Of a stretch of DNA of 44,409 nucleotides, positions 7,428 through 30,916 are shown piece by piece (the first letter of the stretch is position 1; each line of letters begins with the position of its first letter). The stretch is from Pelagibacterium luteolum. GTDB taxonomy: Bacteria > Pseudomonadota > Alphaproteobacteria > Rhizobiales > Devosiaceae. The DNA is taken from assembly GCF_900100665.1 (NCBI RefSeq), contig NZ_FNCS01000024.1, forward strand, positions 1-44,409. Direction: 5' to 3'. Below the pieces are notes generated by a model. That model was given only the letters and a program-made list of their open reading frames with translations, was not told the origin of the DNA and made no database searches. Position numbers and translations under genes: made by a program.

Positions 7428-8813
7428 TTAGCCAACGACGATACCGTCTCGGACAACAATTTTACCGCCGATGAGCACATGGCGTACGCGTCCCAGGTTC
7501 CTGCTGTCAGCAATGACGACATCGGCCCGCTTTCCTATCGTCAATTGACCTCGGTCGGCAAAATCGGGAAAAAGACGCGCCACGTTTCCGGTCGCAAGCG
7601 CCACGGCCTCAGCCATGGCCATCTGGCCCAATCTGACTATACGGTGGATCGCTTCAAGCAAGCCATCCCAATGCCCGCCCGCATAATCGGTTGAGAGAAT
7701 ATCAACCAGGCCGGCGTTGACCAAAGCATCTAGGTTATCTGCACTGTTTCGCCAGCGCGTCGTGATGGTGTCGAGCGTGCAGGCCTCAATTGCCACCCCC
7801 AGAGATTTGAGTTCAGTTGCAAGTTGAACCGATTCTTGAGGCGTAAAGGATGGATGATTGCAGTGCGCCGCAATCAAGCATGCTTCGGGATATTTTTGAG
7901 CCAGATCGACGACAGCGCGAGCTGAGGGCGCCGCGGTGTGAAGAAGCGCGGGTAGCCCGGTCTTGCTCGACCAGTGTGCAAGTTCCTCAAGCCCTTTCAG
8001 CGCCTTGCCCACGGAGGGCAAGACAGTGCTCGACATGACCGCGGCGATAGAGTGCGCGTCATGGGTTTCAACCAGCCCCAATTGCTCGCACAGCGTGACG
8101 AAATCGCTCCAGGGTGCGCGATCCTTGCCCATGAGATCTCGACCGAAAAGCATGTTTTTTAGCCTGCCTGCCGTATGAGCATCAAGCGAAACACCGGTGT
8201 GTTTCAAGATGGCCGCGGGAATGAATTTGTAGTCCTGGGCACCACCACCCAGTGTTTGGCCGCCTCCCCCCTCCCCTAATCCAACCGCACCCTGTTCGAT
8301 CGCCGTAGTGATGCTCGCGCTCAGGTGCTCGGCTAAAAGTCCCGTCCCATCCACAGCCAGAGCCGCTGCTTTCGAAGCCGGTGTATGTGCACTCGTCCAT
8401 CGCACATCGATAGGATGGGTCCGCTCTGCACGCGATCTGGAAAGGCTAAAGCCGCACACGTTGAGCAACGTTGTGGTGCCGCCCAGAAGGTGCCGGTTTT
8501 TCTGGTACTCGATATCGTGATCTCGAGAGGAGATGGAGCCACTCGGCATGAGCGGACCCGACATGCAACCGTGAGCGTGAGCATTAATAACGCCAGGTAG
8601 TGTCATGGCGCCTTGCGCGTCAAACAGTATGGCCTCGTCGGGAGGGGCATGCTCGTAACGCCCCGAGCCGATTTCGCTTATGTGACCGTCTTTAATCTCG
8701 AGATATCCAAGAGGAAAATGGCTGTGTCCGTCTCCGGTAATAATCGCGCAATTGTCGATGATCAGATGCGAACCGCTTCCAAACCGAGGCCGAGCTGTTC
8801 TGCTAGCGGTCAT
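7428..8813 (-). CDS. Metal-dependent amidohydrolase
   Basis: A 461-residue amidohydrolase-superfamily protein (cytosolic TIM barrel). Metal-ligand motifs are visible in order: HAHG after PGVIN, a DAHTAGR histidine, LLHTA, IAAHCNHPSF and STDYAGGHWDG with the late Asp. The C-terminal ADVVIADSRN and LIGGKIVVRDG segments form the composite beta domain of dihydroorotase/enamidase-type enzymes. Such enzymes open cyclic amides, lactams or imides. The ATG at 8813 overlaps the stop of the regulator gene by 11 bases, so it is preferred to an upstream in-frame start at 8894. It is cotranscribed with the regulator and faces the other catabolic genes. The substrate is unknown. Confidence 0.82.
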   Translation of the reverse strand: MTASRTARPRFGSGSHLIIDNCAIITGDGHSHFPLGYLEIKDGHISEIGSGRYEHAPPDEAILFDAQGAMTLPGVINAHAHGCMSGPLMPSGSISSRDHDIEYQKNRHLLGGTTTLLNVCGFSLSRSRAERTHPIDVRWTSAHTPASKAAALAVDGTGLLAEHLSASITTAIEQGAVGLGEGGGGQTLGGGAQDYKFIPAAILKHTGVSLDAHTAGRLKNMLFGRDLMGKDRAPWSDFVTLCEQLGLVETHDAHSIAAVMSSTVLPSVGKALKGLEELAHWSSKTGLPALLHTAAPSARAVVDLAQKYPEACLIAAHCNHPSFTPQESVQLATELKSLGVAIEACTLDTITTRWRNSADNLDALVNAGLVDILSTDYAGGHWDGLLEAIHRIVRLGQMAMAEAVALATGNVARLFPDFADRGQLTIGKRADVVIADSRNLGRVRHVLIGGKIVVRDGIVVG

Positions 8814-21211: not shown

Positions 21212-22420
21212 ATGAACGTGATTGCCAAGCTCGAAGCCGAAAATCTGTTGCACTTCGAAAAACTGATCCTGGAGCAGGGTGATCAGATATCGAAGAAATT
21301 GCAACTTCTGAGCGTTCAGCGATACCCGCCGAACGCCAAGAAAGGCTTGCGTTCGTTTAATCTTGGTGAAGTCGCCAACTATCTTGGGGTATCTCAAAGC
21401 CATCTCAAGAAACTTCATCTCGAAGGGAAGGGGCCTGTTCCAGAAACTTCGCCTTCGGGTCGCAGGACCTATACCGCTGATCAAATGCTTGAGCTTCGCC
21501 AGTATCTCGATCGGTATGGCCGCTCAGACGTCAAGATGTACGTGCCGCACAGAAGGGCAGGGGACAAGCTCCAGATCATTACGGTCGTCAACTTCAAGGG
21601 CGGCTCGGGCAAGACAACGACAGCGGCGCATTTGGCTCAGCATCTGGCCCTGACGGGCCATCGCGTTTTGGCACTTGATCTTGACCCGCAGGCCTCTCTG
21701 TCAGCTTTGCATGGGTTCCAGGCCGAATTTGATCAAGCCAGCTCGATCTATGATGCCATTCGTTACGATTCCAAGCGCGTACCCTTGTCTCAGGTGATCC
21801 AACCCACAAATTTTCCAGGGCTCGATATCGTGCCTGCAAACCTTGAACTTCAAGAGTTTGAGTACGATACGCCGCTTGCAATGGCGGATCGAACGTCGAA
21901 TGCCGGAAAGTCGTTTTTCACTCGTATCGCCAGCGCGCTTGAAGAGGTCAACGATCGCTATGACGTCGTGATCGTCGATTGCCCCCCTCAGCTGGGCTAT
22001 CTCACAATTACGGCGCTGGTCGCTGCAACTTCCGTTCTTATAACGATCCATCCTCAGATGCTTGATGTGATGTCCATGGGGCAGTTCTTGTTGATGCTCG
22101 GTGGCATCCTCGAGCCAATCCGCAGCGCGGGCGCGGAGGTCAATCTCGAATGGTTTCGTTACCTCATCACGCGATATGAACCCACAGATCAACCCCAAGC
22201 GCAGATGGTTGGGTTTCTTCAGACCCTGTTCGGTGGGTTTATTTTGAAAAGCCAGATGGTCAAATCGACAGCGATCTCGGACGCGGGGATCACAAAGCAG
22301 ACGCTCTATGAAGTCGAAAAGAGCGCTATGACCCGCTCAACATATGAGCGTGCCATTGAATCGCTGGACCAAGTGAACAGCGAAATCACCGGGTTGATCC
22401 ATAAATCATGGGGGCGGTGA
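21212..22420 (+). CDS. repA: Plasmid partition ATPase RepA (ParA family)
   Basis: A 402-residue RepABC-type ParA ATPase. The N-terminal part carries a MerR/HTH-like DNA-binding region (FNLGEVANYLGVSQSHLKKL) used for autorepression, and the deviant Walker A KGGSGKTT is at residues 129-136, followed by VIVDCPPQLGYL. It drives active segregation with RepB on parS and represses the repABC promoter. It is followed by a parS palindrome and repB, the standard repABC order. Start ATG 21212 (GGAG 11 bases upstream); an in-frame GTG two codons later is an alternative. Confidence 0.95.
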   Translation: MNVIAKLEAENLLHFEKLILEQGDQISKKLQLLSVQRYPPNAKKGLRSFNLGEVANYLGVSQSHLKKLHLEGKGPVPETSPSGRRTYTADQMLELRQYLDRYGRSDVKMYVPHRRAGDKLQIITVVNFKGGSGKTTTAAHLAQHLALTGHRVLALDLDPQASLSALHGFQAEFDQASSIYDAIRYDSKRVPLSQVIQPTNFPGLDIVPANLELQEFEYDTPLAMADRTSNAGKSFFTRIASALEEVNDRYDVVIVDCPPQLGYLTITALVAATSVLITIHPQMLDVMSMGQFLLMLGGILEPIRSAGAEVNLEWFRYLITRYEPTDQPQAQMVGFLQTLFGGFILKSQMVKSTAISDAGITKQTLYEVEKSAMTRSTYERAIESLDQVNSEITGLIHKSWGR

Positions 22421-22422
22421 AC

Positions 22423-22436
22423 TTGTCAGCTGACAA
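22423..22436. other. parS centromere palindrome between repA and repB
   Basis: TTGTCAGCTGACAA is a perfect 14-bp palindrome immediately after the repA stop. Several repABC plasmids have RepB-binding parS sites in this gap, and a one-mismatch copy lies upstream of repA at 21012. The exact extent of the binding site cannot be fixed by eye. Confidence 0.75.
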
Positions 22437-22491
22437 AATCACTGTTTTTGGACGCAAACTCAATAGGTTGGCACAGAGCTAGTAGGCGAAA

Positions 22492-23469
22492 ATGGCACGA
22501 AAAAACTTACTTGCCGGATTGGTCGGTGCTGATGAGCCAAACGAGGCGGCTAGACCAGCATCCTATCCAACACGCGGCGCAGCAAAGTCGATGATACGCT
22601 CTGTTGGCGACCTAGCTCGGCAGGCGGACGCCTACCTAGAGGGCGAGAACATAGTTGAGGTCGATCCAGCAGATATCGATCGCTCGTTTGTTGCTGATCG
22701 TATCGGCGATGACAGGGAAGAATATGTCGTTCTGAGAGAAGCGATAAAAGAAGGCGGTCAGAATACGCCCGTGCTTTTACGGCCTCATCCGACTGAGAGC
22801 GGCCGGTTTATGATCGTCTTTGGTCACAGGCGCGTAAGAGTTGCCCGAGAACTTGGCCGGCGCGTACGCGCTGTGGTCAAACAAATGTCCAATGAAGCGC
22901 ACGTAAAGGCGCAGGGCCACGAAAACTCAGCACGCGCCAATCTGACTTTTATCGAAAAGGCGAGCTTTGCAAAGCAGCTCGAGGAACTGGGGTATGGGCG
23001 CGATCTTATTGTGTCCTCGCTCGGGTCGAACGAGGCGAGCGTTTCCAAGATGATTTCCGTCGCTCGTCGCATCCCAAGTGACGTCATTGAAAAGATCGGC
23101 GCAGCGCCAAGTGCCGGACGAGAGCGATGGGTCGAGCTTTCCTTGCTCGTGGGCAAAAAGAGCGATGTCACAGCGCAGTTTCTAAGCGATCCAGACGTTG
23201 AGCAGATGTCGAGCGACCTGCGGTTTGAGAGCCTGTTGGGGCTCCTCAACACGTCCGGTCGGAAAATGCGCAAAGGGCTGCCGAAACAAGAGCACAAATG
23301 GTCAGCGCCCGATGATGCGCTCCAGGCGACCTTCAAACAGTCTGGGAAAAAGACAACGCTTGCCCTTGAGGATCCAAGCGGCGCCGGCTTCGGCGGCTGG
23401 ATAACCGAAAATCTGGACGCTCTCTATGAGCAGTTTCAGAAAACACGATCGACAAAAAACGGAGACTGA
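22492..23469 (+). CDS. repB: Plasmid partition protein RepB (ParB family)
   Basis: A 325-residue ParB-type centromere-binding protein. The N-terminal MARKNLLAGL is typical of RepB; the ParB nuclease-like/CTPase region contains FGHRRVRVARELGRRVRAV, followed by the helix-turn-helix around SSLGSNEASVSKMISVARRI. It should bind the parS palindromes at 22423 and 21012 and recruit RepA. It is the middle gene of repABC and precedes the counter-transcribed RNA region. Confidence 0.95.
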   Translation: MARKNLLAGLVGADEPNEAARPASYPTRGAAKSMIRSVGDLARQADAYLEGENIVEVDPADIDRSFVADRIGDDREEYVVLREAIKEGGQNTPVLLRPHPTESGRFMIVFGHRRVRVARELGRRVRAVVKQMSNEAHVKAQGHENSARANLTFIEKASFAKQLEELGYGRDLIVSSLGSNEASVSKMISVARRIPSDVIEKIGAAPSAGRERWVELSLLVGKKSDVTAQFLSDPDVEQMSSDLRFESLLGLLNTSGRKMRKGLPKQEHKWSAPDDALQATFKQSGKKTTLALEDPSGAGFGGWITENLDALYEQFQKTRSTKNGD

Positions 23470-23473
23470 ACGC

Positions 23474-23513
23474 AAAAGAAAAAGGCCCCCCAACGTTACC
23501 GCTGCGGAAGCCC
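23474..23513 (-). terminator. Rho-independent terminator of the counter-transcribed RNA
   Basis: On the minus strand a G-rich imperfect stem-loop (arms at about 23503-23513 and 23484-23494) is followed by a U tract from the A-rich run 23474-23483. This GC hairpin plus U tract is the conserved hallmark of the repB-repC gap in repABC plasmids. Confidence 0.7.
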
Positions 23514-23528
23514 TTCTCATCGTCTAGC
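23476..23528 (-). ncRNA. Counter-transcribed antisense RNA of the repABC cassette
   Basis: The 150-base repB-repC gap has, on the minus strand, a clear promoter (23535-23563) and a terminator (23474-23513), giving a transcript of about 50 nucleotides complementary to the repC leader. In repABC plasmids this RNA limits copy number and confers incompatibility by altering folding of the repC mRNA. The start point is inferred from the -10 position. Confidence 0.75.
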
Positions 23529-23534
23529 AACCTG

Positions 23535-23563
23535 AGAATCGCAAATCCGCGAATCGCTGTCAA
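23535..23563 (-). promoter_or_regulatory. Promoter of the counter-transcribed RNA
   Basis: On the minus strand an exact TTGACA (-35, 23558-23563) is separated by 17 bases from GATTCT (-10, 23535-23540). Spacing and position match the strong constitutive antisense promoters of repABC plasmids. Confidence 0.75.
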
Positions 23564-23619
23564 GTGTAGTGGTGCCTTTAGGGCGCGCCGGGACGCTTTT
23601 GCCTGAACGGTGAAAGAAG

Positions 23620-24930
23620 ATGATGCGGATACACAATACAACGACGCCCTTTGGGCGGCGGACGATGACGCTTGACCATGTCGCAGCTCAAATGGACGCT
23701 GAGGGCCTTCACGATAAGCCCCCCGTCGATAAATGGCGGACATTTCAGGACATAAGGGAAGCACGAGAGAAGATCGGTGCGACCGATCGTTCACTCGCGA
23801 TCCTCAATGCCCTACTATCATTTTATCCCGAAACAGTGCTGTCGGCGCAAGAAGGGTTGATTGTCTGGCCCTCCAATGAGCAGCTGATTGCAAGATCGAA
23901 TGGAATGTCGCCGGCAACATTGCGCCGCCATCTTGCCGTCCTGGTCCATTGCGGACTGATTATTCGACGCGATAGTCCTAACGGCAAACGCTTTGCTCGT
24001 AAGGGTTGGGATGGACAGCTCGACCAGGCCTACGGCTTTGATCTGTCGCCCGTTGTCGCCAGGGCGAGGGCCTTTGCGCAAATGGCTGAGGATATCCGGG
24101 CTGAGCGCCGGGCCTTGCGCGTCGCCCGAGAGCGGGTCACGCTCCTGCGCCGTGATATTGCAAAGACGATCGAAACAGGCATCCATGAAGGCGTGCCGGG
24201 AAACTGGGGTGCGGCGCAAACCCGGTACGTTGAGATTATGGCGCGGCTTCCACGCCAAGCGGACCGCACCCTGGTCGGTGAAATCGGCGATGAACTCGAG
24301 GCGTTATACGCCGAACTGCGTCAAGCATTGGAATCGTTCGTTAATTCTCTAAAAATGAACGCCAATGAGTCTCATAATGAGCAGCACATACATAATTCAA
24401 ACCCAGACTCCCATAAAGAATCTGAAGATCGCTCTAGAAACCAAGAAGAAGAACCAAGCAGCGTTGAGAACGACCGCAAGGTGGAGAGTCTGCCGAAGCG
24501 GGATCTGCCTTTGGGCATTGTGCTAGACGCATGCCCGGGCTTGATCGAACTCAATGGCGGGCGCGCCATCGTTAACTGGCGCGATTTCGTGGCGGCAGCT
24601 GAGTTTGCGCGGCCGATGCTGGGCATTAGCACCAGTGCCTGGGCCGAAGCGCTTGCCGTTCTCGGGGCGAGGGAAGCGGCAATAACGCTGGCCGCCATCT
24701 ATCAAAAAGGCGAAGCGGTCAAATCTGCGGGGGGCTATTTGCGATCGCTTGTGGATCGGGCCAAAGACAACAAATTCTCGACGTGGCCGATGATCATGGC
24801 GTTGCTGAGGGCAAAGCTCGACGCTGAGGAGCCCCCGAGGACACAAGGGCCTGAACACTCCGATGGCAATCGTAAAGCTGGCATTTCGGTTTCGCCGTCC
24901 TTGCTCCAAAACCTCGCCAAACCTCGATAG
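23620..24930 (+). CDS. repC: Replication initiator RepC
   Basis: A 436-residue RepC, the only replication initiator of repABC plasmids; it acts at an origin within its own gene. The N-terminal TTPFGRRTMTLDHVAAQM and the winged-helix region (GLIVWPSNEQLIARSNGMSP, LRRHLAVLVHCGLIIRRD) are diagnostic. A linker at about residues 240-290 (Asn/Glu/Ser-rich) is encoded by an A+T-rich stretch near 24340-24470, where the family's origin is expected. Two ATGs (23620, 23623) are equivalent starts. Its leader is the target of the antisense RNA. Confidence 0.95.
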   Translation: MMRIHNTTTPFGRRTMTLDHVAAQMDAEGLHDKPPVDKWRTFQDIREAREKIGATDRSLAILNALLSFYPETVLSAQEGLIVWPSNEQLIARSNGMSPATLRRHLAVLVHCGLIIRRDSPNGKRFARKGWDGQLDQAYGFDLSPVVARARAFAQMAEDIRAERRALRVARERVTLLRRDIAKTIETGIHEGVPGNWGAAQTRYVEIMARLPRQADRTLVGEIGDELEALYAELRQALESFVNSLKMNANESHNEQHIHNSNPDSHKESEDRSRNQEEEPSSVENDRKVESLPKRDLPLGIVLDACPGLIELNGGRAIVNWRDFVAAAEFARPMLGISTSAWAEALAVLGAREAAITLAAIYQKGEAVKSAGGYLRSLVDRAKDNKFSTWPMIMALLRAKLDAEEPPRTQGPEHSDGNRKAGISVSPSLLQNLAKPR

Positions 24931-25141
24931 GGCAGGGGAGTAGGACGCGTGATTGGTAGAGTGGCACTTAGGTATAGGAGGCGACGGTCACCAATGCAGG
25001 CCATCGACGCGCAGCCTCGGCGCGATAGGGGGGACGCTCAATGCATCACTCGTCTAGAAAGAGAACAACGTGCAGCTTGTTCTGAGCGCATCGTGAGCGC
25101 AAATTGATCATTTGGTCTTCAAGAGCTGTCCGGAGTGTAAT

Positions 25142-25513
25142 ATGCAGCCCCACGTTTCAGACGTTGAAGCCTTCCGATTTGGTGACGGCGAGATCGTCTT
25201 TCTATCCTCGAGCCACCTCGCCACACAACTGGGGATAACACAGTCTGAACTCGCCAAACTGGCAGGACTCGCTCGGAACACTCTGAGCGCCAAGTCAGCG
25301 ACCCGCAAAGTTGACTTAGCTCTTAGTCCGATTGTGCGTATCCTAACTTTGGCCGCTGACATGGCGGGGGACGAGAAACGTGCTGTTATCTGGTTCAAGC
25401 ATCAACCACTGCCCGGCTGGGCGGGAAAAACAGCTTATGATTTGGTGAGCGAGAGCAAATCGGCCGAGGTTTTGTCGTATTTGGAGGCAGTACGCGCAGG
25501 CGTTTATGCCTGA
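25142..25513 (+). CDS. DUF2384 (MbcA/ParS/Xre) antitoxin
   Basis: A 123-residue protein with an Xre-like helix-turn-helix (LATQLGITQSELAKLAGLAR) and a C-terminal toxin-binding DUF2384 segment (WFKHQPLPGWAGKTAYDLVS, SYLEAVRAGVYA). Family members neutralise and co-repress RES-domain toxins that degrade NAD+. The ATG at 25142 follows GGAG by 7 bases. Its TGA overlaps the ATG of the next frame (25506), the normal overlap of this toxin-antitoxin type, but that toxin gene is broken. The antitoxin itself looks intact. Confidence 0.85.
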   Translation: MQPHVSDVEAFRFGDGEIVFLSSSHLATQLGITQSELAKLAGLARNTLSAKSATRKVDLALSPIVRILTLAADMAGDEKRAVIWFKHQPLPGWAGKTAYDLVSESKSAEVLSYLEAVRAGVYA

Positions 25514-25889: not shown

Positions 25890-26981
25890 CTAAAGGCCTG
25901 CAGCTTTAGTCAAATTTACGCGGAACCGGTCCCGGCGCCGCTGGTAGCGACGCGTCATCTCGGCGGAGGCGTGGCCCAACTGCTTTTGTACATGGCGTTC
26001 TTCGACCTCGGCCGAAGACGCCAGGCCAGCGCGCAATGAATGGCCTGAAAACAGCCTTAAACGCCGATCTTCCGGTAAATCGCCGCGAATACCCGCCGCG
26101 AGCGCTGTCCGCTTTACAAGGCGTGCAACCTCCTGGCCATTGAGGCGCTCGGATCCGACTTTTTTGCCCTCGCCAGTGACCCGGCGAAACAGAGGGCCAT
26201 GCGCCACACGCCCAAATTTCTGCCAGGTTTCGAGCGCTTGCACTGGACACGTCGCGCTGGAGGATCCGCGGCCAATCTCGGCCTCACGCCATCCGGTCTT
26301 ACCCCTAAGGGTGACCAAGATACCTTTGTCGAAGCTTTCGATCCATCCGCGACTGTCCGTCGTTTGGTCGCGACCACAATCGAGACCCACAATCTCAGAC
26401 CGGCGCAATCCCCCGGCAAATCCAACAAGCAATATGGCGCGGTCACGCATCCCACGCAAAGACCCAGGGTCTAACGTGCCAACCATTGCAATCAGGTCTT
26501 CAGGCAAGATTGCTTCCTTCTGGCGGGCAGGGGCGCCATGGGTGTTGCGAATTCCCGCCATCACCGTAGCTATGTGGCGATCCTTACGATCTAAAGAGTG
26601 GCCGCGTTGGCGATAGTTCCAGCTCAGTGATGATAAGCGCCGCGCAATTGTCGCGACCGAGCTGGGTTTTTTATCTCTCGTCACCGCTCCTGATGCACAC
26701 GCGGTGATATAGAGCCCAACCACCTGCGGGTCAGGAGTGAGAGCGTCTAAGCCTTTTCTCCTGCACCAGCTGGCAAAGTGCTTCCAATCAGAGGCGTAAG
26801 CGCGGCGCGTATTGGGAGAACTCGCTGCCTCCACATACTCTCGAGCCCGGTCGGCGAGACCTGTCATATGAGAGGGCAGGGAGGGAGCTGTGGTCTCTTG
26901 TTCCGGCGCTGCGTTCACCACAGCCTCGGCATGGCCGATTAAGGGTAGCTGCGCCGGCGTTTTTGCGTCTTGAGAGCTCAT
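25890..26981 (-). CDS. Tyrosine recombinase/integrase
   Basis: A 363-residue site-specific recombinase. An N-terminal SAM-like arm-binding domain (about 40-150, YVEAASSPNTRRAYASDWKH) precedes the catalytic domain with all expected residues: R193 (GGLRRSE), K228 (RGKTG), H314 and R317 (GHSLRAGL), H337 (QLGHAS) and the nucleophile Y346 (TRRYQRR). It is divergent from the DUF1403-ScpB-like pair across a 205-base gap containing a 7-bp-arm inverted repeat. It may resolve plasmid multimers, as XerC/D-like enzymes do, rather than integrate DNA; no att sites were identified. Confidence 0.92.
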   Translation of the reverse strand: MSSQDAKTPAQLPLIGHAEAVVNAAPEQETTAPSLPSHMTGLADRAREYVEAASSPNTRRAYASDWKHFASWCRRKGLDALTPDPQVVGLYITACASGAVTRDKKPSSVATIARRLSSLSWNYRQRGHSLDRKDRHIATVMAGIRNTHGAPARQKEAILPEDLIAMVGTLDPGSLRGMRDRAILLVGFAGGLRRSEIVGLDCGRDQTTDSRGWIESFDKGILVTLRGKTGWREAEIGRGSSSATCPVQALETWQKFGRVAHGPLFRRVTGEGKKVGSERLNGQEVARLVKRTALAAGIRGDLPEDRRLRLFSGHSLRAGLASSAEVEERHVQKQLGHASAEMTRRYQRRRDRFRVNLTKAAGL

Positions 26982-27087
26982 AAACCACTTTTATCCAAGC
27001 CCTGTGGACGCGCGGAGCGCCCTGGAGCACGATGGTTGAGGATTTGCTCGACGAGAGCGTCAAATTCGAAGCTACTAACTAACGAAC

Positions 27088-27104
27088 GATAATGCAACAT
27101 TATC
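27088..27104. promoter_or_regulatory. Inverted repeat in the recombinase/DUF1403 divergent region
   Basis: GATAATG-CAA-CATTATC is a perfect 7-3-7 inverted repeat in an A+T-rich stretch, 107 bases upstream of the integrase start and 83 upstream of the DUF1403 gene. It could be an operator shared by both promoters, or a core site for the recombinase; a plausible -10 (TATAAA) lies just downstream, near 27155. Confidence 0.45.
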
Positions 27105-27186
27105 ATTCATTTTACATCGTCGACAGGCAGGGCGGTTTATGGTAATTTTATTGTTATAAAGCGCCGCGGCGTGGTAGCGTCCGACT

Positions 27187-28140
27187 ATGAATTTTTTAGG
27201 TGACGTCTCGATATCGGACATGCGGGTGGTGCCTAGGGTACCGGCGTGGGCGCGGCCACGCAGCGAAGCACAATCCGATGCCGACGCTGCCTATCTCGCC
27301 GGCGCAGCCTTGATTTCTCTTGATTATCTCGTGCGGGAAGCTCCGGCTTGGGCAGGCGTGTGGCGCATGCGGCTCGCCCTTAAATCGGTCGTAGCTGCAA
27401 GCCGACTGCTCAGGCGCGCAGATGCGGAAACCGATCTGCGCGATGCGCATGTGTTCCGGTCAGTTGGCGCTGACCCGGGACCTGCGGGAAAAGTGCTTTT
27501 GGCATGGCGGCGTCTCGCCAGTCGATCAGCGACACTGGACGAGGATGTGGTGCGTTCCATCGCCGAGCTGCTTGATCTGAAATGGGATGGCGCGCTCGCC
27601 GAAGTCCTCGCCAATGCTCAGGAAATGTATGGTTCTCAACGGTCGGCACCGACAATTGCCGCTGAGCTCGCAGCAAGTGCCTACAGGGCGCGACCCGATG
27701 CCGAACTCCTTGCGTATTGGTTGGCCGATGCGGTGCTAGCTCAGAAATTCCACTGGCCAGTGCCGATCCCTTTGCTGGCCGGACAGATTTTGTCGCCGGT
27801 ATTGCGGACTGGCAAATTGGGAAATCGAATTCGGCCGGGCGAAACGGGTTGGGGCAGGGCGGTGTTTACGGCCTACGCCCAAGCGGCGGCCGACGCGTGT
27901 GACCTGGGTATTGATCTCGACAAGCGGGCAGGGCGCCTTCTTGAAGTCGCACCACGCCTGCGAGCTAAGGGGTCGGCCCAGGTTGTGAAATTGTTACTTG
28001 AAGAGGATGGACTGCCGGCGTCCTGGTCTAGCGCAAAGCTTTCGGCCCGTGGCGCTCGGCGCCTCTTTGAACGCCTAGAGGAGTTGGGTGCGGTGCGCGA
28101 ACTCAGCGGCCGACCCACTTTCCGCATTTACGGGTTGTAG
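27187..28140 (+). CDS. DUF1403 family protein
   Basis: A 317-residue protein of the uncharacterised DUF1403 family, found mainly on rhizobial plasmids. It is soluble and mostly helical; recognisable are GAALISLDYLVREAPAWAGV, the DPGPAGKVLLAWRRLASR segment near residue 95, and the C-terminal winged-helix-like ARRLFERLEELGAVREL followed by RPTFRIYGL, which resembles Fic-associated DNA-binding tails. Two bases separate it from the ScpB-like gene, so the two are one operon. Function is unknown; context suggests a DNA-associated role in plasmid maintenance. Confidence 0.85.
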   Translation: MNFLGDVSISDMRVVPRVPAWARPRSEAQSDADAAYLAGAALISLDYLVREAPAWAGVWRMRLALKSVVAASRLLRRADAETDLRDAHVFRSVGADPGPAGKVLLAWRRLASRSATLDEDVVRSIAELLDLKWDGALAEVLANAQEMYGSQRSAPTIAAELAASAYRARPDAELLAYWLADAVLAQKFHWPVPIPLLAGQILSPVLRTGKLGNRIRPGETGWGRAVFTAYAQAAADACDLGIDLDKRAGRLLEVAPRLRAKGSAQVVKLLLEEDGLPASWSSAKLSARGARRLFERLEELGAVRELSGRPTFRIYGL

Positions 28141-28142
28141 TC

Positions 28143-28829
28143 ATGGCGAAACGCGCCAAGGGCGCTCATAGCGGTGCCTTTGATCCCGAACTCGCTGATC
28201 TGCCGCCCGAGGCTAGATGGCGGGAGTGGATGAACCGCGTTGAGGCTGTTCTGTTCGCCGCACCCCAACCCGTCGAGCGGTCGGCTCTGGTCCGCATAGT
28301 TGGCCGTAGCGCCAGCATAGACCTGCTCATCGATGATATTCGCGCCGAACTTGTCGGTAGACCGTACGATCTGGTCAATGTGGCCGGAGGCTGGCAGATG
28401 CGCACTCGGTCAGCGTATGCCGACGCTATAAAGGCATCAATGGCTTTACCTGAGCGCACGGTGGCTTTCACGCAAACCGAGCTTGTCGCGCTTGTGACGA
28501 TCGCCTATCACCAGCCCGTAACCAGGGCAGGCGTTTCTGAAATTCTCGGGTACGAAACGTCGCGCGATATCATAGGGGCACTGCGCGACAAGGACATGAT
28601 TACGGCGGGACCGCGCAGCCCGACGCCCGGCGCGCCGTTCACCTACGTGACGACCAAACGGTTCATGGAGCATTTCGGGCTCAACACGTTGCGAGACCTT
28701 CCTGACGTGGAAACGTTGGAAGATGCAGAGTTGCTAGGTTCTTCCAGCAAAACCGCAGCAGCAATGCCGATCGGATCAACGTCGCACTCCGATCTTTACG
28801 GACAGGACGAAGACGAAAGAATGTCATAG
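28143..28829 (+). CDS. ScpB-like (segregation and condensation) protein
   Basis: A 228-residue protein resembling ScpB, the winged-helix kleisin partner of SMC complexes. It has ADLPPEARWREWMNRVEAVL, AAPQPVERSALVRIVG, VAGGWQMRTR and ITAGPRSPTPGAPFTYVTTK, matching the tandem winged helices. No smc or scpA is present here, so it would work with the chromosomal complex or independently with DUF1403. The acidic C-terminal tail (GQDEDERMS) is unconserved. It begins 2 bases after the DUF1403 stop. Confidence 0.85.
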   Translation: MAKRAKGAHSGAFDPELADLPPEARWREWMNRVEAVLFAAPQPVERSALVRIVGRSASIDLLIDDIRAELVGRPYDLVNVAGGWQMRTRSAYADAIKASMALPERTVAFTQTELVALVTIAYHQPVTRAGVSEILGYETSRDIIGALRDKDMITAGPRSPTPGAPFTYVTTKRFMEHFGLNTLRDLPDVETLEDAELLGSSSKTAAAMPIGSTSHSDLYGQDEDERMS

Positions 28830-29266: not shown

Positions 29267-30607
29267 ATGAATCTGGATATCGAAATTTTCCTTGCCGATG
29301 AGTGGCATAGAGCTGCCAATCTCTTTGTCCATGAGCCCGCACTAGGGTATCGCGGGCCGGTGACGCTTGACTACGATCCGCAATATTTCTTGGACCATGC
29401 GTCGATCGATTACTCCCAAGGACATCCCGCCCGAGACATACGCGCGCTCTCAGTTCGTCTGCCCGTCGATCTAGCATCCCGTTATACCCAAAAATGGCCT
29501 CCGTTTCTGCTTGATCTCATTCCGCAGGGCCATGCTCGCAGGCAGCTGGCATTGGCGATGGGTTTGGAGGAAAACAGTAGAGCCGCGGATCTGCCGCTGC
29601 TGCTGCGTGCGAGCGGAAACACGATTGGAAATATCCGCATCGCCCAGGCAGAACAAGAAGAGCGGCAGCGGCTCGCTTCGTCGACACCGGTGGGCGTGAC
29701 TTGGGGCGAGATGCTGGAGCGAAGCGAGCGGTTCATGGAGGTGTTTGACCGCTTTATGATGATCGCCTCTGGATCAAGCGGCTTGCAAGGAGAGTGGCCA
29801 AAGGTGGCCATGACCCAATCGGCGGACGGGCTCTACTATCCAGACCCGATCGTGGCCGACGACCAGGCGATGGACCACGTTATCGTCAAACTGCTCCGTA
29901 GCGATAAGGCGACCGACCGCGACATTTTAAGACTTGAAGGATTGTATTCCTCCATTGCCGCTCAGATTGGGCTTAACGTAAAAAAAGCCGGTACTTATGC
30001 GCCGGGCGTTCTAATCGTGCCCAGATTTGACCGGAAAATCGTGAACGGTCGGACGATCCGTTTCGGTCAGGAGAGCATCGTTTCTGCTCTAGGTGTATCC
30101 GAATTTGGCTATGTCGGGACTCATGAGAGCTACATTGAGGTCATAAAGAGCGTTTCGACCGATCCTGACGCCGATGTCATCGAATACGTCTTACGCGATA
30201 TTGCTAATCTGGCTATGGGAAACACCGATAACCATGGTCGGAATACGGCCATCGAGAAGTATACGGATGGCACTGTGCGCTTGGCGCCCGTGTTTGACTT
30301 TGCGCCCATGCGTCTGGCTGACGAAACCATTGTCAGATCGACCAGGTGGGAGTGCATGAAATCAAGAGGGGGCGACACTTTACCGAACTGGCAAGTTGTG
30401 TGCGATGCTGTCTATCCCAACGACAAAGATCGTGCGGGCAAGCTGCTGGCGTCGCTAGTGGCATTCGGCGAGCGCCTCAATGAGGTGCCCAAACTTGTTG
30501 CATCGGAAACACGCGACATCGAGCCCAGCATTAGTCGAGCTTTGTCCAGGTTCGACGAGATCAGAAAGAGCCTGACTGTGAATTTGCCAACGCTGGTGAA
30601 AAGGTAA
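29267..30607 (+). CDS. HipA-type serine/threonine kinase toxin
   Basis: A 446-residue HipA-family kinase. It has the N-terminal HipA barrel (about 1-120), a SGSSGLQGEWPKV segment (168-180) corresponding to the flexible phosphorylation/P-loop region, a catalytic loop GNTDNHGRN (318-326) and the metal-binding Asp in APVFDFAPM (D344). HipA kinases inactivate aminoacyl-tRNA synthetases and induce dormancy. Both catalytic Asp positions are intact. Unlike classical hipBA, the toxin gene comes first and the antitoxin follows after 3 bases. The target cannot be predicted. Confidence 0.85.
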   Translation: MNLDIEIFLADEWHRAANLFVHEPALGYRGPVTLDYDPQYFLDHASIDYSQGHPARDIRALSVRLPVDLASRYTQKWPPFLLDLIPQGHARRQLALAMGLEENSRAADLPLLLRASGNTIGNIRIAQAEQEERQRLASSTPVGVTWGEMLERSERFMEVFDRFMMIASGSSGLQGEWPKVAMTQSADGLYYPDPIVADDQAMDHVIVKLLRSDKATDRDILRLEGLYSSIAAQIGLNVKKAGTYAPGVLIVPRFDRKIVNGRTIRFGQESIVSALGVSEFGYVGTHESYIEVIKSVSTDPDADVIEYVLRDIANLAMGNTDNHGRNTAIEKYTDGTVRLAPVFDFAPMRLADETIVRSTRWECMKSRGGDTLPNWQVVCDAVYPNDKDRAGKLLASLVAFGERLNEVPKLVASETRDIEPSISRALSRFDEIRKSLTVNLPTLVKR

Positions 30608-30610
30608 ATT

Positions 30611-30916
30611 ATGCCACGCTGGAAGATGCCCACCAAGGAAGAGACGCGCACGCTGCGCAGGGAGCTAGCGACACGTGCGCGCTCCGGCACGCTGCGCTTT
30701 CCCGATGCCGTGGGCGAGATCCGAAAGTCACTCGGGATGACCCAAGAACAATTCGGGACCATGCTGGGCATGAGCCGGCGCCAAGTTGCGGAAATCGAGA
30801 GTGGTCGCGCAAACCCGACATTGGAGACACTTTTGAAGATCGGAAAGCTGTTCGGCTTTACGGTCGGATATATCCCGGAAGAGGCAGCCGACGAGCATTC
30901 CGTTGCCAAGCAATAG
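30611..30916 (+). CDS. HipB-like XRE antitoxin/repressor
   Basis: A 101-residue protein with a central Xre/HTH_3 domain (IRKSLGMTQEQFGTMLGMSR, then RQVAEIESGRANPTLETLLK). It lies 3 bases after the HipA-type kinase and should neutralise it and repress the pair at the inverted repeat near 29203. The ATG gives MPRWKMPTKEETRTLRREL, an N-terminal extension longer than in E. coli HipB. The order kinase then antitoxin is inverted relative to E. coli. Confidence 0.8.
   Translation: MPRWKMPTKEETRTLRRELATRARSGTLRFPDAVGEIRKSLGMTQEQFGTMLGMSRRQVAEIESGRANPTLETLLKIGKLFGFTVGYIPEEAADEHSVAKQ

Follow-up and report, generated by a model that had tools for sequence, protein, structure and literature searches.

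A tyrosine recombinase, a DUF1403 protein and an ScpB paralogue as a candidate multimer-resolution system of alphaproteobacterial plasmids

Contig NZ_FNCS01000024.1 of Pelagibacterium luteolum – 44,409 nucleotides, analysed at full length and referred to here as the window – carries a gene for a tyrosine recombinase (TyrR) and, facing away from it, a pair of genes for a DUF1403 protein and a paralogue of ScpB. We propose that this trio, together with a 29-bp core site in the region between the divergent genes, constitutes a multimer-resolution system of plasmids, typically those of the repABC type, in which DUF1403, probably with ScpB, acts at a second inverted repeat (IR2) close to the core; judging from comparative sequence evidence, we put the probability of this reading at about two in three. 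The kit, which large plasmids of soil and marine alphaproteobacteria often seem to carry, probably separates joined plasmids before cell division. The features concerned are the following.

25890–26981, minus strand: TyrR, plasmid tyrosine recombinase, 363 amino acids (Pfam PF00589 and PF02899; conserved catalytic residues).
27082–27110, plus strand: 29-bp dif-like core, ACGAACGATAA TGCAACA TTATCATTCAT (11+7+11), recognised by position, single copy and covariation.
27121–27128, plus strand: conserved CGACAGGC box between core and IR2, from column counts (positions 40–47 from the core start).
27130–27166, plus strand: IR2, GGGCGGTTTAT (27130–27140) and ATAAAGCGCCG (27156–27166), 9 of 11 pairs and fixed spacing; inferred DUF1403 site.
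27175–27180, plus strand: TAnnCT, which may be the −10 element of the DUF1403 promoter and reads TAGCGT in the window; column conservation.
27187–28140, plus strand: DUF1403 protein (PF07183), 317 amino acids, with a C-terminal tail resembling a helix-turn-helix (HTH) domain (Pfam; HTH_13 below cut-off).
28143–28829, plus strand: plasmid-type ScpB paralogue, 228 amino acids (PF04079, ScpB relatives in the PDB, tree).
21212–24930, plus strand: repA, repB and repC, the adjoining context (Pfam AAA_31, RepB, RP-C).

The genome to which the window belongs, as contig C34, measures 4.3 Mb. A first-pass annotation, made from the window's sequence alone, had the three open reading frames and their arrangement right: TyrR is divergent from the DUF1403–ScpB pair, 205 bp separate the divergent starts, and 2 bp lie between the DUF1403 stop and the ScpB start. 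TyrR contains both integrase domains (Phage_integrase at 46.4 bits, against a Pfam cut-off of 27.1) and the whole R-K-H-R-H/W-Y set that marks a tyrosine recombinase. As had been claimed, the enzyme is complete, and its catalytic residues are conserved in the family – R193, K228, H314 and R317 show no substitution among the 64 aligned sequences, H337 is kept in 63 of the 64, and of the 63 sequences in which the Y346 column is represented, 62 have the tyrosine. It is not an Xer equivalog in NCBIfam terms, scoring 47.6 bits against 329.6 for XerD and 45.6 against 335.15 for XerC. The match of the second gene to DUF1403 spans nearly its full length (338.6 bits; cut-off 31.8), and the product of the third has the SMC_ScpB domain (PF04079, 119.1 bits against 27.4) and scores 86.7 with the ScpB equivalog TIGR00281 of NCBIfam, just under the cut-off of 89.2.

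That the trio forms a conserved unit had been suggested from the window, and gene neighbourhoods elsewhere agree: it recurs as a plasmid-borne unit, often beside repABC. When the 72,556 records of PLSDB were searched separately with each protein and the resulting sets compared by their totals and leading genera, DUF1403 gave 712 matches (E 1e-5), TyrR 698 (1e-60) and ScpB 701 (1e-20), with nearly identical leading genera. Sixteen of the 60 listed DUF1403 matches were picked for variety; ScpB follows DUF1403 in all 16, and a divergent TyrR is found in 15. Between TyrR and DUF1403 lie a transposon in loci L017 and L019, toxin–antitoxin genes in L005 and L007 and a nucleotidyltransferase gene in L006, while in L020 DUF1403 is a fragment and the 6 kb upstream of it contain no TyrR. 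A search of genome contigs with the window's DUF1403 alone confirmed nothing, so far as it went; from a search with a 16-row DUF1403 alignment the best 80 of at least 569 matches were taken, and remote members are therefore under-represented outside the plasmid sample. Among viral contigs, the same alignment confirmed no relative.

The set of loci used below numbers 95 (15 plasmids, 79 contigs and the window), drawn from 98 listed after removal of L001, L020 and L076 as duplicates or a fragment; L002–L004 are unused labels. Every one of the 95 has an ScpB match behind DUF1403, and the two frames mostly overlap by 4 bp or leave a gap of 2 bp; a strict count gives 93, since DUF1403 is interrupted in L033 and the ScpB frame is short in L064. 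In 69 loci a divergent TyrR is located upstream (of the remaining 26, five have less than 6 kb of upstream sequence), and a RepC match occurs in the examined flanks of 50. Conservation is highest in TyrR, with a mean pairwise identity over 62 loci of 0.76, against 0.60 for ScpB and 0.51 for DUF1403. The unit is separable, however: two clades of the DUF1403 tree and three single loci are without a linked TyrR and were scored as core-less, although one of the three, L098, has a core-like site. DUF1403 was found in 4 of 385 genomes of a class sample (three above the cut-off, that of the window included), which makes the family uncommon. The contigs of L025 and L093 are titled as a cyanobacterial metagenome-assembled genome (Kaiparowitsia) and as Marinicella; their DUF1403 sequences group with alphaproteobacterial ones, and mis-binning or misnaming is likely.

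The evidence for a recombination site begins with a 7-bp inverted repeat that had been reported at 27088. The repeat is real, and longer than claimed: it forms the centre of the 29-bp core, around which 14-nucleotide arms, 86% complementary, run from 27081 to 27094 and from 27098 to 27111. The full core, the second repeat IR2 and the division of labour proposed here between the two DNA sites had all been overlooked. In the 44-kb window the 29-bp consensus matches at a single place, on both strands because it is a palindrome, where 100 shuffles give an expectation of 0, and the shorter pattern CGATAAN7TTATCR has one match in the 4.3-Mb genome, where its reversed control has none. The core is present in 76 of the 95 loci and lies 103–108 bp upstream of the DUF1403 start in 75 of these; the exception, L016, has it 199 bp from the called start, yet an ATG stands at the usual place. 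Its inner ATAA and TTA are nearly invariant, and the spacer is mostly TGCAAGA or TGCAACA, an asymmetric sequence that would give the site a direction. The outer arms vary in a complementary way (181 of 260 variable positions, against 126 ± 8.2 when shuffled). Fifteen complete plasmids, 3.7 Mb in total, each contain exactly one core and no match to the reversed pattern: a recombinase with one cognate core per plasmid, as expected of a tyrosine-recombinase system for multimer resolution.

Core and recombinase are also mostly kept and lost together. The core accompanies 62 of the 63 intact TyrR genes, a count in which L017 and L019 rank as broken only because their sequence stops within the gene. 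In L051 and L058, whose TyrR has an in-frame stop, it is reduced to a recognisable right half, and remnants persist in the TyrR-less loci L035, L036, L037 and L094. Among TyrR-less loci with more than 6 kb of upstream sequence, 6 of 21 retain a core; L098, whose start is called too far downstream, was scored as core-less, and the core-like site at its position 7774 would make a seventh. All 15 genomes searched (of 16, L098 excepted) that have a locus lacking both TyrR and core contain a TyrR match elsewhere, all three such matches in the L035 genome being broken or partial. On the whole the core goes with a working recombinase, the cores kept by TyrR-less loci and those of L137 and L143 (below) being exceptions to a strict rule. 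The core is present, and GCG occupies the IR2 position, in all of ten further plasmids picked by their TyrR (10 of the 698 PLSDB records).

Three further observations concern the surroundings of the core. L061, with an intact TyrR, has the core arms about 100 bp upstream of DUF1403, with a shortened spacer. Toxin–antitoxin genes of the Phd/VapC type often lie between TyrR and the core (L005, L007, L024, L063, L095 and others). Neither these insertions nor the nucleotidyltransferase gene of L006 alter the distance from core to DUF1403.

Which protein follows which site was examined in 62 loci having TyrR, core, DUF1403 and ScpB, over 658 protein columns; the p-values are approximate, derived from Fitch parsimony on one tree with a hypergeometric test and uncorrected for the 658 columns. 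For position 4 of the core arms, the best of all columns, in both arms, is TyrR 283: A goes with Q283 in 30 of 31 cases, T with K or R in 27 of 27 and C with K or R in 3 of 4. Changes on the tree are shared with TyrR 283 in 6 of 6 cases for the right-arm base (p = 1.1e-7) and in 6 of 10 for the left (p = 2.1e-5). The segment around this residue we take to correspond to helix J, through which Xer and Cre recombinases contact DNA. The covariation thus supports binding of TyrR to the core arms. For IR2, the best of the 658 columns for base 50 (27131) is DUF1403 287, a candidate recognition-helix residue: T accompanies R287 in 42 of 42 loci, G or C accompanies A, D or E in 20 of 20, and all three tree changes coincide (p = 1.4e-5). 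Each change at DUF1403 288, in turn, shares its branch with a change in the left arm of IR2 (4 of 4). Core positions 5 and 6 and IR2 base 54 have no clear partner among the 658 columns.

Both 287 and 288 fall inside a C-terminal stretch of DUF1403 (66–68 amino acids) that resembles HTH_13 (PF11972) in all six members tried, with E-values of 0.0006–0.058; the scores of the six fragments, 13.9–20.2 bits, lie below the curated cut-off of 26.1, and a PDB search with the DUF1403 profile returned chance-level matches only. Binding of DUF1403 to IR2 through this HTH-like tail is, again, supported by the covariation. The consensus of IR2 is GYGCGGTTT ... AAACCGCRC, and in at least 49 of 76 loci its best placements have their dyad axis in common. 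Its GCG stands at core positions 51–53 in 75 of the 76 and one base later in the remaining locus, so that core and IR2 keep their spacing to the base pair; we infer a distance of about 52 bp between their centres, near five turns of B-DNA. Downstream, the T, A and T of the possible −10 element (positions 94, 95 and 99) are found in 73, 74 and 75 of the 76 loci, while a sigma-70 consensus scan of the intergenic region gave no match. IR2 may also serve as an operator, given that it seems to overlap with the likely promoter of DUF1403. In 12 of the 14 TyrR-less loci viewed, the left arm is kept 54–59 bp before DUF1403; it is absent from L042, whose start is uncertain, and from L062, which has a transposon there.

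A further line of evidence comes from transposons. In passages of two papers, Tn5053-family elements are described as targeting plasmid resolution sites and using the target's own resolvase (PMC7765201, PMC11406308). Modules of tni genes, sought with the tni proteins of L010, L015, L017 and L019, occur in 13 of the 95 loci. Seven lie upstream of the core in the same orientation (L017, L019, L032, L066, L078, L080 and L091), either between core and TyrR or in loci where TyrR is absent; as for other positions, L062 has one before DUF1403 and no core, and L056 and L065 have one 5–7 kb downstream. In L019, L032 and L091, matched terminal repeats (sought by script as TGTC...GACA ends only) place the near end of the element exactly 27 bp upstream of the core, and in L017 the same boundary is seen by eye; of the remainder, that of L080 ends at −61, that of L066 perhaps at −165 (weak), and that of L078 lies inside TyrR. 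The four −27 elements belong to one family (TniB 61–89% identical), those of L066, L078 and L080 being 41–48% identical to it. The L032 element is flanked by a 5-bp duplication, CGGGC, whereas L019 and L091 show no identical 5-mers. A tni end thus recurs at one position near the predicted resolution site, as in targeting of the Tn5053 type, which supports, without proving, a resolution complex at the core. A different tni family sits just behind scpB in L010, L015 and L057, the TniB of L010 and L057 being 27–31% identical to those upstream of the core.

Tyrosine recombinases recombine their core sites. On the reading that we prefer, TyrR would bind the arms of the core and recombine the core copies of a plasmid dimer, returning monomers, while DUF1403 would bind IR2 by its HTH-like tail, about five helical turns away, most likely in a complex with the translationally coupled ScpB paralogue. 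At IR2, the two proteins might act as an accessory that favours resolution over fusion, as a repressor of their own promoter, or as both. Plasmid resolution, one of the roles offered by the first-pass annotation, fits the dif-like site, the covariation of core and TyrR and the position-specific transposon insertions.

Several observations weigh against this reading. Recombination by TyrR at the core is itself a prediction from sequence. The best arm pairing of IR2 ranges from 7 to 11 of 11, in counts made without a chance control; the signal at DUF1403 287 consists of three tree changes only; and other parts of IR2 point elsewhere, the top column for right-arm bases 84–85 being DUF1403 G223, followed by A287, and ScpB supplying the top columns for base 54 and for the left arm as a whole. 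Where TyrR and core have been lost, DUF1403, ScpB and IR2 are still found, which implies some activity without a linked core, and autoregulation alone would explain IR2. From the other side, 6 of the 10 TyrR-picked plasmids have both DUF1403 and ScpB annotated (L136, L138, L139, L140, L142 and L144); in L137 all three genes are in pieces beside a core that is still good, L145 keeps TyrR, core and IR2 next to a damaged DUF1403 and without an ScpB match, in L143 a good core stands beside a TyrR that is divergent and unannotated, with DUF1403 reduced to a remnant and no match for ScpB, and L141 has an annotated TyrR, core and IR2 with neither partner. The best 80 of at least 569 contig loci, moreover, are mostly from Rhizobiales.

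The halves of the module, finally, seem to have partly separate histories. Pairwise distances correlate at 0.86 between DUF1403 and ScpB, at 0.56 between TyrR and DUF1403 and at 0.46 between TyrR and ScpB, where the split-half self-agreement of the three proteins is 0.89, 0.95 and 0.90 (0.75 for TyrR among closer pairs). L056 and L060, for example, differ by 10% in TyrR and by 53% in DUF1403, L065 and L067 by 34% and 19%. Such discordance suggests that the halves have often been exchanged, and it too counts against our reading, weakening the case for an obligate partnership. With the bases of the core tracking TyrR and those of IR2 tracking DUF1403, the exchange point may be located between the two sites or within the core itself. 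The reassortment would be explained by site-specific crossing-over at the core, and by homologous recombination as well.

Some of these points also give substance to the strongest rival – a real possibility, if clearly a lesser one – in which TyrR and its core are a stand-alone, Cre-like device for dimer resolution, and DUF1403–scpB is an independent autoregulated operon with IR2 as its operator only, serving some other plasmid function such as condensin-like handling. It accommodates the survival of DUF1403–scpB with IR2 away from TyrR and core, the retention of TyrR, core and IR2 without an intact DUF1403–ScpB pair in L141 and L145, and the discordant distances. What it leaves unexplained is a core–IR2 spacing that is fixed in 75 of 76 loci, for which two unrelated sites would have no need; the TyrR match found elsewhere in each of the 15 searched genomes with a locus lacking TyrR and core likewise speaks against it. 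A more ambitious extension of the multimer-resolution reading, which we regard as possible but less likely than not, is that DUF1403 and the plasmid ScpB form a sequence-specific, ScpA-free complex at IR2 that links the TyrR synapse with segregation, possibly through recruitment of host SMC to the resolution site of the plasmid, with the core as a natural crossover point at which plasmids swap their repABC/TyrR and DUF1403–scpB sides.

We consider it unlikely that the operon is a condensin-like module, in which DUF1403 replaces ScpA and, with ScpB, recruits host SMC at IR2 while TyrR works beside it. DUF1403 does hold scpA's place in the gene order, directly before scpB, much as chromosomal scpA has scpB nearby: an ScpB frame is present at all 30 ScpA loci fetched. 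The profiles of DUF1403 and ScpA, however, show no similarity (hhalign probability 0.5%), and nothing in the sequence identifies DUF1403 as an ScpA-like kleisin. Nor does the operon encode ScpA: the window lacks it, as had been stated, and the genome's sole ScpA match lies on contig C33, side by side with another ScpB found by the genome search, which makes the window's ScpB a second copy. In a midpoint-rooted tree of 92 plasmid ScpB sequences and 30 chromosomal ones from relatives of the window, the two kinds separate on long branches, with support of 1.0 for the chromosomal group, and so far diverged a plasmid ScpB also argues against the condensin-like module. The suggestion that the trio might compact the plasmid is accordingly unsupported. 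Least probable is that TyrR is an ordinary island or phage integrase and the palindrome its attachment site, since, for all that many records annotate it as a site-specific integrase and that it scores with phage integrase families, each of the 15 plasmids has one core and no two flanking sites, TyrR is near-constantly beside DUF1403–scpB and often repABC, and the DUF1403 alignment found no relative on viral contigs (where TyrR itself was not searched).

Among the neighbouring genes of the window, a HipA-like gene followed by an XRE/HTH gene lies directly behind scpB (29267–30916) and is a probable toxin–antitoxin pair; an HTH–HipA pair, in reversed order, lies near the module in pTiBo542 (L008) too. 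An antitoxin of the Xre/MbcA/ParS type at 25112–25513 has counterparts paired with a RES toxin in L005 and other relatives; the RES toxin of L005 has no match in the window, and the antitoxin seems orphaned. PADLOC reported no defence-system match for TyrR, DUF1403 or ScpB.

If the multimer-resolution reading is right, DUF1403, a family without an assigned function, gains a testable role as a sequence-specific DNA-binding protein, and a second ScpB lineage gains a possible role outside the known SMC–ScpAB operon, from which the present arrangement – likewise an ScpB-family gene behind a partner gene – differs in lacking ScpA and in its separate ScpB clade. The location of the core becomes predictable in roughly 700 plasmids with TyrR, pTiBo542 among them, for which one dimer-resolution proposal was found in the open-access literature. 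That literature yielded no paper on DUF1403, or on ScpB with repABC or with a plasmid tyrosine recombinase. The nearest report found concerns a recombinase alone, proposed for the dimer resolution of rhizobial plasmids: the paper on pSmeLPU88b of S. meliloti describes an XerD/Cre-like recombinase and toxin–antitoxin genes behind repABC in several rhizobial plasmids and links such recombinases to plasmid dimer resolution (PMC10194956). Neither ScpB nor DUF1403 occurs in its main text, its recombinase section names no core, and the likeness of its recombinase to TyrR is drawn from its description. To the recombinase, the present reading would add a site, a second DNA-binding protein with its own site, and a wider range. 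The same paper mentions RinQ of Rhizobium etli, another site-specific recombinase found near repABC, with a part in plasmid incompatibility; unlike TyrR, it is of the invertase/resolvase family (PMC10194956). For Tn5053 and Tn402, the targets reported in the relevant passages are res sites of resolvases (PMC7765201, PMC11406308), whereas here the insertions lie at −27 from a tyrosine-recombinase core, and Tn5053-like transposons may thus hunt sites of tyrosine recombinases besides those of resolvases.

The closest parallels in kind are the systems in which tyrosine recombinases resolve plasmid dimers, namely Xer at cer and psi, Cre–lox and ResD–rfsF. With them the module shares a tyrosine recombinase, one core per plasmid, inverted 11-bp arms and a short spacer; the inner ATAA/TTAT of the core is as in dif, and IR2, whose spacing from the core is constant in 75 of 76 loci, may be an accessory site in the manner of cer, a component that not all such systems have. 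The module differs in bringing its own recombinase, in a 7-bp spacer, and in having DUF1403–ScpB as the candidate accessory in place of ArgR and PepA.

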